NCBI RefSeq assembly: GCF_000374025.1
Contig: NZ_KB893206.1
Location: 1-64,000 of the forward strand
Source: Spirosoma panaciterrae DSM 21099
GTDB taxonomy: Bacteria > Bacteroidota > Bacteroidia > Cytophagales > Spirosomataceae
Length of the DNA: 64,000 nucleotides
Direction: 5' to 3'
The position numbers were made by a program, and so were the translations under genes. Each line of letters opens with the position of its first letter. Within the stretch, counting starts at the first letter, position 1. The notes below the pieces were generated by a model. It saw nothing but the letters and a program-made list of their open reading frames with translations. It did no database searches and was not told where the DNA came from. Of this stretch, positions 6,581-32,815 are shown one piece after another.

Positions 6581-6895
6581 TTAGACATCTTCTGCCGCTG
6601 GTAAAAGCCGAAATACCTTATGATCGGCATAGAACGTTCCGCCTGGTAGGATCGATGCCAGTAATGCCAGCCCCGTTTTACCAACTGACCAGCCATATTC
6701 GGTCTTTGCCTGAATAACCACCAGTACGTACCAGACAAACAGCAGACCATGAATCGGACCCAGTATCTGAACCGCTTCAGGATGGCCACCAATTCGTTTT
6801 AACGGCACGGCAATGAACAAAAGCAGCAAGTACGAAATCCCTTCGGCAAAGCTCACTACGCGAAGCCGGATTTTGAGTGAATTGAAAAAGTGCAT
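6581..6895 (-). CDS. DUF3817 family membrane protein
   Basis: A 104-residue integral membrane protein with three hydrophobic helices. It shows the DUF3817 signature: VVSFAEGISYLLLLF in the first helix, AVPLKRIGG after it, then ILGPIHGLLFVWYVLVV. The function of this family is unknown. Its start lies 13 nt from a series of TGAC repeats at 10-bp spacing on its own coding strand (6908-6960), which may be its control region. The next gene in the same direction begins 500 nt upstream. Confidence 0.85.
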   Translation of the reverse strand: MHFFNSLKIRLRVVSFAEGISYLLLLFIAVPLKRIGGHPEAVQILGPIHGLLFVWYVLVVIQAKTEYGWSVGKTGLALLASILPGGTFYADHKVFRLLPAAEDV

Positions 6896-6975
6896 ATAGG
6901 TGTACTAGTCAAGTATGGTCAGGAATGGTCAGGAGCTGTCTTATGTGACTTTATAAGTCAATAAGTGAAATTCTA
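6896..6975 (-). promoter_or_regulatory. Phased TGAC repeats and palindrome upstream of the DUF3817 gene
   Basis: On the minus strand TGAC occurs ending at 6908, 6918 and 6928, with a degenerate copy at 6938 (AGAC), so the copies are exactly 10 bp apart. Next to them is a perfect inverted repeat TGACTT-TAT-AAGTCA at 6946-6960. The copies read toward the gene start. A related array lies at 11029-11130. It may be binding sites on one face of the helix or a short tandem repeat. Confidence 0.5.
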
Positions 6976-7547: not shown

Positions 7548-8450
7548 CTATACAAACTGACTTCTGAACTGAGTGGGCGTTAGATCGGTGTATTTTCGAA
7601 AGAGTTTTCCAAAGCTCGATTGATCGGGGAAGCCCATTTCATACGCGATTTGCGCTACAGTCAACTCTGTCTGGACAAGCAGGACTTTCGCTTCCAGCAC
7701 CACCCGTTCATCAATCCAGACAGAAGGCGATTTATCGGTTCGATTTTTCACGACCTTGTTTAGATGGTTCGGACTGACGGCCAGCCAGTCGGCATACTGA
7801 CTGGTGAGTCGGGTTTCTCGAATACGCGTCGTCAGTAAGTCCATAAAGCGTTGGACCAGCCGTTCGCCCACATCTGTATGAATCGCCATGGGGCCCACAT
7901 ACGCCCGGTCGATCTCTGCAAACAGTGCCAGCAAATACGGCCGGATCAATTCAGGTTTTGTTGCTCCGTTTTCCTGGTATTCAACAGCGAGTCGGTTCAG
8001 AAGGGCATTGACAAACTGCACTTGCCGATCCGATAAAGGTATATACGGATTGCCCGTCAATTTCAGAAAATCGAAATCGCTATTGTTACCTGCGCCCAAC
8101 AATAGCTCCTGACTGATAAACGATATGAATCCTACCGAATCGGGCCAGATGCTGTGTAAGGTAAATATTTGGAGCGCAGGCACAATCACCAGATCGTTCG
8201 GGCGGAGCGTATAGGCCTGATGCCCAATGGTAATGTCGACCTGCCCACGTTCAACCATAAACAGTGCATGATTGCTGGTGCGGGAGGGGGGCAGCGGCAG
8301 CTTGATAATCGGCCAGCTATATTCCAGGGGCGCAATGATGAACTGGTTGAAATTTTCCTTAAATCGGTCGCCCCACGAAGCATCCCTGATCAGAAAAAGC
8401 TCGCGGGCCATGGCCGGACTAATAGCTGGAAAGAGAGCACTGGGCGTCAT
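7548..8450 (-). CDS. AraC-family transcriptional regulator
   Basis: A 300-residue regulator. The N-terminal ~170 residues form a cupin-type sensing domain (HALFMVERGQVDITIG, then LRPNDLVIVPA). The last ~100 residues are the double helix-turn-helix DNA-binding domain, with SPNHLNKVVKNRTDKSPSVWI and the second-HTH signature TVAQIAYEMGFPDQSSFGKLFRKYTDLTP. Its ATG overlaps the stop of the M1 aminopeptidase gene in an ATGA arrangement, so the two are very likely co-transcribed and translationally coupled. The effector and targets are unknown. Confidence 0.92.
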   Translation of the reverse strand: MTPSALFPAISPAMARELFLIRDASWGDRFKENFNQFIIAPLEYSWPIIKLPLPPSRTSNHALFMVERGQVDITIGHQAYTLRPNDLVIVPALQIFTLHSIWPDSVGFISFISQELLLGAGNNSDFDFLKLTGNPYIPLSDRQVQFVNALLNRLAVEYQENGATKPELIRPYLLALFAEIDRAYVGPMAIHTDVGERLVQRFMDLLTTRIRETRLTSQYADWLAVSPNHLNKVVKNRTDKSPSVWIDERVVLEAKVLLVQTELTVAQIAYEMGFPDQSSFGKLFRKYTDLTPTQFRSQFV

Positions 8451-11014
8451 AGATGATACAGCAACTTACTCGCCCGGAACGGCCCATCGGCAGCCTGTAA
8501 GAGTTTGGCCCGCAAGCGTGGGTTGTAGGTCGGACGGTCGGCCAGAAATTTGCGGACCAGTTGTACGGTTTCGGGTGTCTGATAACTCGACAAGGTCGAT
8601 CGGAGCCACGATTCGGGGAAGAAAATGTCGCCCGTTCGCTGAATTTCTTCGAGTAGTTCCAGGCTCTTGGGTAAATATTTAGCGGAGGTCTCAGCCCGCA
8701 ACGGATGATGCAGATACCCCAGCGCAGCCGTTACCCAGGCTTCGTGTTCGCGGTTGGCTTCACTGGTCAGCGAGGCAAAAAACTGATCCCGCTCAGCCAC
8801 GTTCGACGATAGGGCTGGCATCATGAATTCGAGCCGTTTCTTCCGGTCCGGGTTTTTGATACGAGCCAGTTGCTTCGTCAGAATTCCTTCGGCCGGGTAG
8901 TCGCGAACAGCCAGCGCCAGCGCCAGACTGGTGTAATCGTCTTCAGTGAGGGTTACGCCCGCTGGTGCTTTCTGATCGCGCCAGATGGCATACAGGCGGT
9001 CACGGGCTTCGGTACTCAGGGCAATGTTCTGGTACAGGCGAAACAGAAGCTTTTTTTTGCCGGAACTAGTTTCCTGTTCCATAGCCTGCCACGCGGCCTG
9101 TTCGACTGAAGCCGCCAGAGCGGGGCGTTGTTCGGGTCGGGTAAAGTTCCAGACAATATCCGAAAGCTGGTTCGTAATCAGGCGCAGATTCAGCTCTTCC
9201 GACTCTCTGCTTAACCTATTCTGGTAGCCAAAGGCCAGTTGAGCCGGGGAAATTCCCTGACCCGATACCATGTTTTCGTACAAATTAATGTAGGTAGCGG
9301 CTCGTGTCACTGGATTTTTGGTGTTATCCAGATAAACGGTGGTGGCTGTATCGACTGGAAAGATGCCATAGCCCTGCCCCGACGAATTGAAGGTGACAAA
9401 TAGGGGCGTCCGTTTGCCAATGGCTTCGTGCAGTACAACCTGCGGCTTGTCCATATGTACGGTCAACTCTTCCTGATGGTCGTTATACACAAACGTTATT
9501 TCAAAACTCTGGGGCCAGAATCGGCTGGAGCCGTCTTCACCCTGCTGCGAAATCACAAACTGTTTGATGGTGCCTCCTTTGCCATCCCATTGGTACGAAA
9601 ATTTTGGACGCCCGGTTTCATTCACCCATACCTTGTTCCAGGCTTGCAGATCGGCAGGAGTGTGGGTATCCAGAATCGAAATCAGGTCGTTCCAGGTGGC
9701 ATTACCAAACGAGTACTTTTTCAGGTATTCGCGGAGCCCGTCGCGTAGGGCGGTTTTGCCCATCAGCCGTTCCAACTGACGCATCATGATCGGTGCTTTG
9801 TGGTAAATAATGCCTCCGTAAAGCGTTCCGGCTTCCTGTAGGTTGGTTAGTGGCTGCCCAATCGGATTGGCGCCTTCGGTTCGGTCGACGGCGTAGGCAG
9901 CGGGAAAATGATCGACCACAAACTGAAGGTCGTAATTAGCCTCCGGCGATGATACTTCCGTGATCTTATCGGCCATAAAGTTGGCAAATACCTCTTTCAG
10001 CCACACATCGTTGAACCAGCGCATGGTCACCAGATCGCCAAACCACATGTGTGCCGTTTCGTGCGAAATCAGCGTAGCCCGTGAGAGCTTCTGGTCGCGG
10101 GTGGCACCGTTGTCGAGAAACAGGCTGGATAGTCGGTAATCGATGGCCCCAACGTGTTCCATGCCGCCATACTGGAAATCGGGTACGGCCACAAAATCGA
10201 ACTTTTGAAATGGATACGGAATCTGCGTGTAGTCTTCCAGAAACCTGAGCGCATCGGCATGAAGCGAAAAGATCGGGTCGAGGCTCAGCCGGATTTTGGT
10301 GGTATCGGTTTCGCGGTGCAGGAGGGTCATCGAACGCCCGGCGAGGGTTCGGCTAACGGGGGTGAACGTCCCCGCCACAAACGAAAACAGATAGGTCGGG
10401 ATTACCTCCGACTGACGGAAATGGATGGTTTTGCGATCACCAGCCGTAGTTGAGTCGTTGACGGCTGCGTTGGTCATGGCCTGCCAGTGGCTTGGAATCG
10501 TGAGCGATAGCTGAAATTTCGCCTTCAGGTCGGGCTGATCGAAGCAGGGAAATACCGTTCGGGCGCGGTCGGGAACGAGCAGGGTGTATATATACTCATC
10601 GTTTCGGTTGAGGGATAAATTACCCGCCGTAAACTGAATCGAAATGATGTTCTTTCCAGGCTTCAGAAAAGCAGTAGAAATCAGCAAATGTTCGCTCTCA
10701 AAGACAATGGGGATGGCCTTTTCATTGACAGAAATCGTCTGTACCTGAGTACGTTTCTCTTTAAAATCGAGTTGGAGAGGAGCCGCGTTTCTGGCCCAGT
10801 AAAACGATATTGATTCAGTGGCTGGAATAGGCTGGTTTTTTTGCGAAGGAATGTCGAACTTTAAAGCATAAGCCACATCGCGGATGGTTTTTTTTCGGGC
10901 TTTAGCCAGCATCTGCGACACACCCGTTTCGACAGTTGGCGATTGACTGAGGGCAGATTGTTGACTCCCGAGCATAATGAGTAGAAGAAGTGCAGTAATA
11001 CCGTAACGCATCAT
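8447..11014 (-). CDS. M1 family zinc aminopeptidase, secreted
   Basis: An 855-residue gluzincin with a signal peptide in the first ~24 residues (to ALSQ). The zinc site is HETAH (His318, Glu319, His322) followed by Glu341 in LKEVFANF, the HExxH-x18-E spacing of M1 peptidases. The exopeptidase motif is GGMEH (residues 293-297) in place of GAMEN; Glu296 is kept, and this form is common in Bacteroidota. The N-terminal saddle domain and a helical C-terminal half are present, so the protein is full length. It probably trims peptides in the periplasm or outside the cell. The AraC gene overlaps its end, and its start faces the divergent gene at 11145 across the phased TGAC array. Confidence 0.93.
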   Translation of the reverse strand: MMRYGITALLLLIMLGSQQSALSQSPTVETGVSQMLAKARKKTIRDVAYALKFDIPSQKNQPIPATESISFYWARNAAPLQLDFKEKRTQVQTISVNEKAIPIVFESEHLLISTAFLKPGKNIISIQFTAGNLSLNRNDEYIYTLLVPDRARTVFPCFDQPDLKAKFQLSLTIPSHWQAMTNAAVNDSTTAGDRKTIHFRQSEVIPTYLFSFVAGTFTPVSRTLAGRSMTLLHRETDTTKIRLSLDPIFSLHADALRFLEDYTQIPYPFQKFDFVAVPDFQYGGMEHVGAIDYRLSSLFLDNGATRDQKLSRATLISHETAHMWFGDLVTMRWFNDVWLKEVFANFMADKITEVSSPEANYDLQFVVDHFPAAYAVDRTEGANPIGQPLTNLQEAGTLYGGIIYHKAPIMMRQLERLMGKTALRDGLREYLKKYSFGNATWNDLISILDTHTPADLQAWNKVWVNETGRPKFSYQWDGKGGTIKQFVISQQGEDGSSRFWPQSFEITFVYNDHQEELTVHMDKPQVVLHEAIGKRTPLFVTFNSSGQGYGIFPVDTATTVYLDNTKNPVTRAATYINLYENMVSGQGISPAQLAFGYQNRLSRESEELNLRLITNQLSDIVWNFTRPEQRPALAASVEQAAWQAMEQETSSGKKKLLFRLYQNIALSTEARDRLYAIWRDQKAPAGVTLTEDDYTSLALALAVRDYPAEGILTKQLARIKNPDRKKRLEFMMPALSSNVAERDQFFASLTSEANREHEAWVTAALGYLHHPLRAETSAKYLPKSLELLEEIQRTGDIFFPESWLRSTLSSYQTPETVQLVRKFLADRPTYNPRLRAKLLQAADGPFRASKLLYHL

Positions 11015-11028
11015 AGAAGTTGTTGGTA

Positions 11029-11130
11029 GTCAGAAAGGGTTATTCATCGTCAGTAGGTAGTCATTTATTGTACAGAAAATGACCACGAATGACAAACAAT
11101 GACTAGCTAATGACCATACATGACGATGAA
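11029..11130. promoter_or_regulatory. Symmetric array of ~10-bp-phased TGAC repeats in a divergent promoter region
   Basis: The plus strand has ATGAC at 11079, 11089, 11099, 11110 and 11120, reading toward the gene at 11145. The minus strand has TGAC copies (GTCA on plus) at 11029, 11049 and 11060, reading toward the aminopeptidase start at 11014. A 10-bp inverted repeat (TTCATCGTCA at 11043-11052, TGACGATGAA at 11121-11130) ties the halves together. Spacings of 10, 10, 11 and 10 bp equal one helical turn. Confidence 0.55.
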
Positions 11131-11144
11131 TTAGGTCAAAAATA

Positions 11145-12422
11145 ATGCACGCTATGAAACAGCGCTTAACTTTTCTACTGCTATTACTGGCTCTTGTCGG
11201 TTGGGCAGTTCCTGCCTGGGCTAATTATGTCCTGATTCCGATGGATGACCGGCAGACCAATCACCTGAAAGCGTATGGGATCGCTTACAAAGTGCTGAAA
11301 GATGATCAGGATGTAGAATGGCTGCTGAACTACCGGGGTGGCAGTTTTATGATGAAATACACCAAGTCGGTCGAAACGGAATGCCGGGTTCGGGGGGTGT
11401 CGTTCGAAGCCATTTCCGATTCGCAGGCGGAGTCGATTCGGCAGCAGTTGTCCAATCCTGATGTGAACATGGATGTGGTCAAGCTACAGAAAGCGGCTAA
11501 GATCATCGTGTATTCACCCGCTAAGGTTGGCCCTGCCGAATTTGAAAATACCGATGCCGTGTTGATGGTACTCACCTATGCCGAAATTCCGTACGAACTG
11601 GTGTACGACGAAGAGGTGCTGAAAGGTGATTTGCCTAAATACGACTGGTTACACCTGCACCATGAAGATTTTACGGGGCAATATGGGCGTAATATGCATC
11701 GGCAGTCGCTGGCCGACATCAAAGCCCAGGAAGACATTGCCCGTAAATATGGCTATTCGAAAGTATCGCAGATGAAACTGGCTGTGGCCAAAGGAATCAA
11801 GCAGTTCTGCGCGGGGGGGGGGTACCTGTTTGCCATGTGCTCGGCCGCCGAAACGCTCGATATTGCGCTGGCGGCTGAGGGTGTCGATATTGTCAGCAGT
11901 AGCTACGATGGCGACGGTATGGACCCCAATGCACAGGAGAAACTCGACTTCAGCAAAACGTTTGCGTTTGGCAACTTTACGCTTGAATCCGACAATGGGT
12001 ATCGCGGATTTTCGACGTTTTCGGATATCAATTCAGCCGCCAATCGGGGGTTCGACGAGCCTAGTGGTTTCTTTGAGCTGTTCAATTTTTCGGCCAAATG
12101 GGATGCCATTCCTTCTATGCTCACCCAGAATCACGAAAATATTATCAAGGAGTTTTTCGGCCAGACGACAGCCTTCCGTAAGGGAGCGGTGAAGCCCAGT
12201 AGCCTGGTAATGGGTGAGGGCAAAACGTCGGACCGCTATCTCTATGGCGAAATGGGCAAAGGCCAATGGACATTTTACGGTGGGCATGACCCCGAAGGCA
12301 CCCGGGGGGGCGGTTTTCGTAACCCAACCGATCTGAACCTGCACCCCCATTCGGCGGGGTATCGGCTTATTCTCAATAATGTCCTGTTTCCATCGGCCCG
12401 GAAGAAGAAGCGCAAAACGTAG
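11145..12422 (+). CDS. Secreted protein of unknown function, amidotransferase-like fold (often named 'asparagine synthetase B')
   Basis: A 425-residue exported protein; residues 1-26 are a signal peptide ending AWA. The mature protein begins NYVLIPMDDRQTNHLKAYGIAY, a start I recognise from a Cytophagales family that databases often name asparagine synthetase B. None of the synthetase motifs (N-terminal catalytic Cys, SGGxDS ATP loop) are present, so that name looks wrong. Alternating strand/helix segments with AKIIVYSP, WLHLHHEDF and a GGGYLFAMCSAAETLD turn suggest a class I glutamine-amidotransferase-like fold, with Cys in the elbow position. Near the C-terminus GQWTFYGGHDPEGT is another conserved-looking block. 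It begins 130 nt from the divergent M1 peptidase start. Confidence 0.6.
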   Translation: MHAMKQRLTFLLLLLALVGWAVPAWANYVLIPMDDRQTNHLKAYGIAYKVLKDDQDVEWLLNYRGGSFMMKYTKSVETECRVRGVSFEAISDSQAESIRQQLSNPDVNMDVVKLQKAAKIIVYSPAKVGPAEFENTDAVLMVLTYAEIPYELVYDEEVLKGDLPKYDWLHLHHEDFTGQYGRNMHRQSLADIKAQEDIARKYGYSKVSQMKLAVAKGIKQFCAGGGYLFAMCSAAETLDIALAAEGVDIVSSSYDGDGMDPNAQEKLDFSKTFAFGNFTLESDNGYRGFSTFSDINSAANRGFDEPSGFFELFNFSAKWDAIPSMLTQNHENIIKEFFGQTTAFRKGAVKPSSLVMGEGKTSDRYLYGEMGKGQWTFYGGHDPEGTRGGGFRNPTDLNLHPHSAGYRLILNNVLFPSARKKKRKT

Positions 12423-27013: not shown

Positions 27014-27105
27014 TTTTTTGTCATCCCGACGCAGGAGGGATCTCTGGGCAATGTGATCAAATATTCCTCGCCCGGAGATCCCTCCTGCGTCGGGATGACA
27101 AAAAA
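27014..27105. repeat. 92-bp near-perfect inverted repeat (TCATCCCGACGCAGGAGGGATCT type)
   Basis: The 36-bp arms (27014-27049 and 27070-27105) differ at one position, around a 20-nt loop. The arm core, TCATCCCGACGCAGGAGGG, is of a type I have seen as dispersed intergenic repeats in Cytophagales genomes. It sits downstream of the cupredoxin-dehydrogenase gene and could also end its transcript. Confidence 0.8.
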
Positions 27106-32740: not shown

Positions 32741-32815
32741 AACCGCGAAGACGCGATAGACGCAAAGAGCTATACCTAAACGTTTAGTCTTTTTGTCTAT
32801 CGCGTCTTCGCGGTT
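32741..32815. repeat. 21-bp perfect inverted repeat (AACCGCGAAGACGCG type)
   Basis: Arms at 32741-32761 and 32795-32815 are perfectly complementary around a 33-nt spacer that holds its own small palindrome (TAAACGTTTA, 32777-32786). It sits between the convergent stops of the sulfatase and ferritin-like genes and shares its arm motif with the element at 39243. It is probably a dispersed repeat doubling as terminator. Confidence 0.8.

Follow-up and report, generated by a model that had tools for sequence, protein, structure and literature searches.

The stretch of DNA analysed here (the window) comprises 64,000 nucleotides of Spirosoma panaciterrae DSM 21099 (contig NZ_KB893206.1, positions 1 to 64,000, forward strand). 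Two divergent genes in this window are separated by a gap in which copies of the word TGAC form two opposed sets, and the features of the locus are as follows.

8447-11014, minus strand: flanking gene for an M1 family aminopeptidase-like protein of 855 aa (Peptidase_M1, E = 3.3e-52)
11015-11144, no strand: whole intergenic region, which folds better than its shuffles
11029-11063, minus strand: left arm, three GTCA (TGAC on the minus strand) at 11029, 11049 and 11060, steps of 20 and 11 bp, read directly
11033-11110, no strand: inner 78 bp without counterpart in the orthologous gaps of genomes G004 and G027, from comparison of the gaps
11042-11052, no strand: left half of a perfect 11-bp inverted repeat, from reading of the sequence
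11079-11124, plus strand: right arm, five ATGAC units at steps of 10, 10, 11 and 10 bp, read directly and found by pattern searches
11121-11131, no strand: right half of the perfect 11-bp inverted repeat, from reading of the sequence
11154-12422, plus strand: flanking gene of 422 aa without a Pfam match at the threshold of E = 0.001
6908-6931, minus strand: shorter second run (three TGAC spaced 10-11 bp), located upstream of the ORF at 6581-6895 (minus strand), from pattern search

Direct reading confirmed the original prediction in the positions of the five ATGAC on the plus strand (starting at 11079, 11089, 11099, 11110 and 11120) and of the three minus-strand copies. The inverted repeat that was said to frame the set is present and perfect, and is one base longer than the 10 bp claimed. 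One extra GTCA, in the opposite direction, lies at 11135, beyond the stretch of 11029-11130. The 422-aa gene has a second in-frame ATG at 11145, and its first 203 aa are matched in 35 of the 36 genomes of the genus. Across the window, TGAC and the overlapping ATGA are the only tetramers, and ATGAC the only pentamer, that form chains of five at 10-11 bp. Three TGAC at this spacing were matched four times, while 100 dinucleotide shuffles gave no match. Three of the four matches belong to the main array and the fourth is the run at 6908-6931, possibly a degenerate second copy before a small ORF. Folded as single-stranded DNA, the region 11015-11144 reached -17.7 kcal/mol (mean of shuffles -8.9, sd 2.3, z = -3.8).

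The opposed TGAC repeats thus exist, and they belong to a dispersed family of which they are a single member. Using a strict pattern of three ATGAC at steps of 9-10 bp (not 10-11), with the reversed pattern as control, we obtained 10 matches in the genome of S. panaciterrae and one match of the control. In an 864-kb sample of the same genome, ATGAC pairs occurred 13 times at 10 bp, six times at 11 bp, six times at 20 bp and five times at 21 bp, where about one is expected at each distance. Within the gaps of this sample, ATGAC ranked first among all pentamers at 10-11 bp by the ratio of observed to expected pairs (14 vs. 0.35); in its ORFs, five pairs were observed and 1.7 expected. A looser scan for two ATGAC at 10-11 bp gave nine places in the sample, three of them labelled as lying in ORFs, one of which has an over-extended start. 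CTGAC was also frequent at 10-11 bp in the gaps (12 observed, 0.49 expected), as in hairpins of the type TAGTCAGGAGTGGTCAGG; it is a related second word and possibly a sister dialect with the same step.

The original prediction had suggested that hits in the genome and its relatives might concentrate close before start codons. Strict matches were found in the relatives as well, and they lie mostly between genes of the same direction. In the genus, 19 of 36 genomes carry between 1 and 65 strict matches each and 17 carry none, so that array-rich and array-free species occur within one genus; the single matches in G025, G030 and G035 share one 23-mer and may be coding. None of the 23 genomes outside the genus in the same sample had a match. 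Over 200 genomes of the family, 51 were matched, with 932 matches (sum of rows) against 11 of the reversed control; counts above 10 occur in four genera, and the richest genome (G132) holds 124. A 35-base array of G024 recurs letter for letter in Spirosoma spitsbergense (L177), and arrays are also present in several Dyadobacter records. Among the matches listed in a wider scan of contigs (at least 80 loci), 43 bear Bacteroidota names, 12 of these being Dyadobacter, and the others carry names from other groups. Viral contigs contained 52 stretches of four units at 10 bp, many with identical units. In L315 of G024, gene pairs (450 and 546 aa) are tandemly repeated and four successive gaps each contain a TGAC cluster, and the first 400 bases of L167, from a Lewinellaceae MAG, hold 37 GTCAT at steps of 7-8 bp opposite nine ATGAC.

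The architecture of the family was analyzed in 83 distinct strict clusters from 72 sources, in which three core copies had to lie 9-11 bp apart and other copies were free; a few pairs are the two arms of one element, and some clusters are orthologues. In 66 clusters, GTCAT copies are followed by ATGAC copies, while eight have only the left arm, seven only the right arm and two are mixed (RLLRRR and RRRL, the latter, in L113, being the reversed order). In the 66 clusters with both arms in order, the middle between them measures 2-40 bp (median 23.5). Neighbouring copies stand 10 bp apart in 249 cases, 11 bp in 45, 9 bp in five and 12 bp in none, and among more distant pairs, steps of 30 bp (46) and 31 bp (34) exceed those of 29 bp (2) and 32 bp (5). 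Since most loci came from the search at 9-10 bp, the excess of 11 over 9 was not produced by selection. The helical register first noticed in a single gap therefore extends to the family, and steps of 10-11 bp fit binding on one face of the DNA. Among 11 steps of 14 bp, four were exactly GTCATTNGCTNCGC and several others were similar.

The logo of 163 units reads A-ATGAC-H-A-Y-N, with A before ATGAC and after H in 88% of units, which gives a 10-bp consensus of AATGAC-H-A-Y-N. This consensus was found again in Dyadobacter and other Bacteroidota. The same 163 units contain 67 different five-letter spacers, and no palindromic sequence is conserved in common among the copies, which share the word, the step and the opposed orientation, but not the remaining sequence. 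Together with the phasing, a consensus longer than TGAC and diversified spacers speak for a protein that binds one face.

The alternative first offered for the array, a degenerate satellite, was only weakly supported. Within the 83 clusters, adjacent spacers agree in 0.40 of letters; for random pairs the value is 0.48, and none of 2000 permutations fell as low as the observed one. None of 117 neighbouring pairs is identical. This is the reverse of what a satellite would show. Arrays with identical neighbours do exist outside the sample, namely two in the genus (contig C202 of G024 and position 3655157 of G016) and at least 20 among the listed matches of genus g53, and slippage does seem to occur in such arrays. 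Free variation in copy number and arrays inside genes had been named beforehand as signs of a satellite; copy number does vary freely, but none of the 83 clusters lies wholly inside an ORF. The main rival explanation is that the inverted arrays are mutational relics, formed in hairpins through slippage during replication and through template switching, and that no protein binds them. The arrays with identical neighbours shift the odds slightly toward it; the unlike spacers of the sampled clusters are the opposite of what slippage gives, and the recurrence of the unit consensus in other Bacteroidota and the choice of 10-11 bp rather than 9 or 12 bp also count against it.

The same mutational reading draws support from hairpins built of other repeated words in the same genomes (GAGTGAAA, GGGAGGAA, ATTGAATG and AGGGCAW), among which TGAC would be one word of several. 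Inverted repeats scoring at least 16 were found in 96 of 448 gaps of the 864-kb sample, and in none of the shuffles (about 30% of the gaps of this genome and all gaps of four other genomes). The corresponding numbers elsewhere were 39 of 116 gaps in G014, 28 of 114 in G004, 15 of 107 in G018 and 10 of 98 in G001, those of G018 and G001 being mostly terminator-like by eye. A 5-mer repeated at least three times in one half was present in 38 of the 96 hairpins of S. panaciterrae, in 11 of G014, nine of G004, one of G018 and none of G001. Hairpins with repeated 5-mers also occur in genomes without PF01797 (two each in G003 and G031, one each in G029 and G019, none in G015 and G001). The periods of the other words, grouped by eye, seem to lie near 7-8 bp, not a helical turn. 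TGAC may thus be one dialect of a wider class of hairpins. Within the window, a hairpin at 27020-27099, with arms GTCATCCCGACGCAGGAGGGATCT and its complement and several similar copies in the genome sample, resembles the superfamily of CGTC/TGTC-tagged REP elements considered below, and hairpins at 32741 and 39245, which start with AACCGCGAAGACGCGATAGACGC and AACCGCAAAGATGCGACGACGC, perhaps represent another word dialect. On balance, a purely mutational origin of the arrays is a serious possibility, though we consider it unlikely.

The position of the clusters relative to genes is far from uniform. Tandem gaps hold 69 of the 83, divergent gaps 10 and convergent gaps four, and the last are under-used (4 of 83 vs. 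31 of 151 junctions in G014, P-value = 0.001). Hairpins of any word in the genome of S. panaciterrae favour convergent gaps (25 of 70 vs. 63 of 288 in tandem gaps, P-value = 0.02). An intrinsic terminator should prefer 3' ends and convergent gaps, and the depletion of the TGAC clusters in the latter does not fit this function. Among the 69 tandem clusters, 54 start within 20 bp past the upstream stop codon, and in 46 the gap outside the cluster amounts to 40 bp or less, a generous count as called ORF starts may enter the element. The last ATGAC appeared by eye to provide the start codon of some genes; this idea was dropped, and the 24 of 69 clusters at that offset are an upper bound because the ORF caller takes the first ATG. 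The claim that all copies are oriented toward the start codon ahead of them is correct for the gap in the window, because that gap is divergent, but most sampled copies lie between co-directional genes, where the units of one arm point away from the downstream gene. With opposed arms, the orientation rule follows from the layout and is not a promoter rule.

Comparison of orthologous gaps revealed considerable turnover. The gap of the window reads GGTAGTCATGACTACACATGACG in G027 and nearly the same in G004, and the 78 bases of 11033-11110 have no counterpart in either of these two closest relatives. Among the 30 loci read for this gap, including that of S. panaciterrae itself, other arrays were found in G014, G016, G032, G009 and G018, and none was seen in the remaining 22. 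We then compared nine other elements of S. panaciterrae with G004, G027 and G018, whose orthologous gaps carry arrays that are shorter, different or absent. In seven of the nine, some TGAC units are kept in G004 and G027. At L001 and L008, these two genomes carry hairpins of different words, as the mutational reading would have it, and what seems to be left of the other hairpin, GCGTTACA, is still contained in the S. panaciterrae element at L001. In G018, the gaps of L002, L008 and L009 hold a different hairpin and that of L004 a short one; none was visible at L001, L007 and L010, L003 had no match and L005 no usable anchors. As about one fifth of the gaps in S. panaciterrae contain a hairpin anyway, we make no claim that such replacement exceeds chance.

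In seven aligned trios, identity with the S. panaciterrae sequence was 0.84 in motif bases and 0.66 in spacers. Between G004 and G027, a comparison that removes most of the ascertainment, 0.84 of 169 motif bases and 0.78 of 350 spacer bases were kept (P-value = 0.10). At the nine loci and the window, compared with the three relatives where matched, the inner part of the element had been gained or lost, and neither a target-site duplication nor a clean empty site was seen by eye. The short form in G027 suggested growth by nested insertion into the palindrome GTCATGAC; this found no support, as the palindrome has no copy in the gaps of the 864-kb sample and seven in its ORFs.

A regulator of the two flanking genes, as proposed in the original prediction, is not supported by these data. 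The family adjoins many different genes, and at the gap of the window most of the relatives read show a shortened form or none. Since the inner 78 bp are missing in the two closest relatives, the two genes have no conserved operator in this array, which looks less like their switch than like a DNA element that spreads or serves an architectural role. It might instead be the operator of a global transcription factor, bound cooperatively on one face at many genes. Helical phasing, a location at gene boundaries that sometimes reaches the start codon, and some conservation of the motif between relatives are in keeping with such an operator; the spread of strict matches from 0 to 65 between species of a single genus, the lost or lacking inner array at the window gap and the concentration in co-directional gaps close behind the upstream stop codon, not in divergent gaps, all tell against it. 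The neighbouring genes may still share a function. Overall, we regard a global operator as improbable.

The possibility of a function in RNA was assessed from the pairing of the arms. For the 58 elements of the 83 clusters with both arms of at least 20 bases, arm-to-arm complementarity was 18.9, compared with 16.8 for arms taken from different elements (P-value = 0.018), and 11 elements exceeded the 95th percentile of swapped arms, forming a clearly more palindromic minority. The perfect covariation of arms suggested by single elements was thus reduced by this control to a modest excess. Because own arms are barely better matched than swapped ones, the hairpin arises for the most part from the opposed words. 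In transcript sense, the mismatches in the stems comprised 42 G.T, 43 A.C and 81 others, with no excess of the G.U type, and thus give no sign of selection for pairing in RNA. No Rfam family reached the threshold at the locus of the window (one match, E = 0.79). Intercistronic hairpins that protect or process operon transcripts would account for the preference for co-directional gaps and for the good folds, but the wobble test gave no signal, Rfam offered no family and the copy in the window sits in a divergent gap, which together make an element acting in mRNA very unlikely.

Mobilisation by a known transposase was also considered. REPINs are elements of about 100 bp with two inverted halves, which form populations in the intergenic regions of a genome; their copies share sequence and accompany a RAYT (Y1 transposase). 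The TGAC elements are similar in size, intergenic and built of inverted halves, but share only a word. We searched for PF01797, the Pfam model of RAYT, in the 36 genomes of the genus and 32 further genomes. Its counts in the genus showed a weak rank correlation with the arrays (0.41, P-value = 0.014, uncorrected for descent). However, G132 with its 124 matches and G015 with five have no PF01797 match, which rules out a RAYT as a requirement, although a divergent RAYT could escape the Pfam model. In genus g53, PF01797 is present in all 13 array-rich genomes and in 16 of 17 array-free ones (leaving out three genomes with 2, 5 and 6 matches). Furthermore, in none of the 20 PF01797 loci read does a TGAC array directly adjoin the gene. 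In L343 an array lies about 1 kb from it, and in L340 the gene contains a loose cluster of three copies. It is hardly credible, then, that the arrays are REPINs moved by a RAYT.

The reading that we prefer, tentatively and at slightly less than an even chance, takes the array in the window as a copy of an inverted intergenic element that is dispersed and non-autonomous, with units in helical phase as putative protein-binding sites. The patchy copy number, the restriction to gaps and the turnover speak for a non-autonomous element that spreads. Such an element would consist of two opposed arms of 10-bp units one helical turn apart, GTCAT on the left and ATGAC on the right, around a variable middle. 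A protein would line up on one DNA face of each arm and bring the arms together, as happens at transposase or architectural sites, and copies would spread through gene-free gaps and decay there, chiefly between genes of the same direction. We infer that a protein binds the element and copies or maintains it; our searches found no trans-acting gene for the arrays. Also counting against this reading are the modest complementarity of the arms, the small margin by which motif bases are kept better than spacers between G004 and G027, the single-arm and mixed clusters, the arrays with identical neighbours and the lack of a target-site duplication or clean empty site in the gaps compared.

Several known systems resemble this element in part. 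In plant transposons such as En/Spm, many short protein-binding motifs are repeated in both ends in opposed orientation (subterminal arrays). The TGAC elements have such opposed repeated motifs, but no transposase or interior gene was found in them. ERIC sequences and MITEs are short, imperfectly palindromic and intergenic, often in transcribed gaps, and their copies are homologous along their length with conserved ends. Like MITEs, the TGAC elements are dispersed and variable in copy number and have two inverted arms without coding capacity (both arms in order in 66 of 83). In the loci read, no pair of arms with a gene between them, as in an autonomous partner, was noticed. Unlike ERIC sequences and MITEs, their copies share the word, step and orientation, with the exception of one Bacteroidales MAG in which whole copies align. 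In this MAG, Tobar18m (L144, L155, L160, L191, L202 and L203), the TGAC arms lie within a homologous dispersed repeat of about 330 bp with a conserved middle.

The nearest published kind among those compared is the superfamily of CGTC/TGTC-tagged REP elements, palindromic repeats that are also present in Bacteroidetes and have no known dedicated transposase (Di Nocera et al., 2013, PMC3733652). As described there, each element of 20-40 bp has one tag and one stem of 8-9 bp. By our own reasoning, a tag followed by A-T first stem pairs would give a GTCAT start as in our arrays. The TGAC element differs in that each arm repeats the word in helical register, the spacers are unconserved and no stem is conserved. 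In the open-access literature, we found no paper on TGAC arrays. The element thus belongs with the intergenic palindromic repeats as a variant that, judging from the open-access literature, is seemingly undescribed.

Intergenic repeats of bacteria are as a rule detected through the sequence that their copies share, so that elements which keep only a phased word are easily missed. Spirosoma and its relatives may harbour, as a speculative and rather doubtful extension of the present finding, a class of intergenic elements in which only a short word, its fixed step and the opposed layout are conserved, with several lineage-specific dialects that could replace each other in the same gaps, each with its own putative DNA-binding or mobilising protein. 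As a simple pattern already retrieves the 932 matches from the 200 genomes of the family, comparison of array-rich with array-free strains makes the search for a protein responsible for the arrays directly doable.
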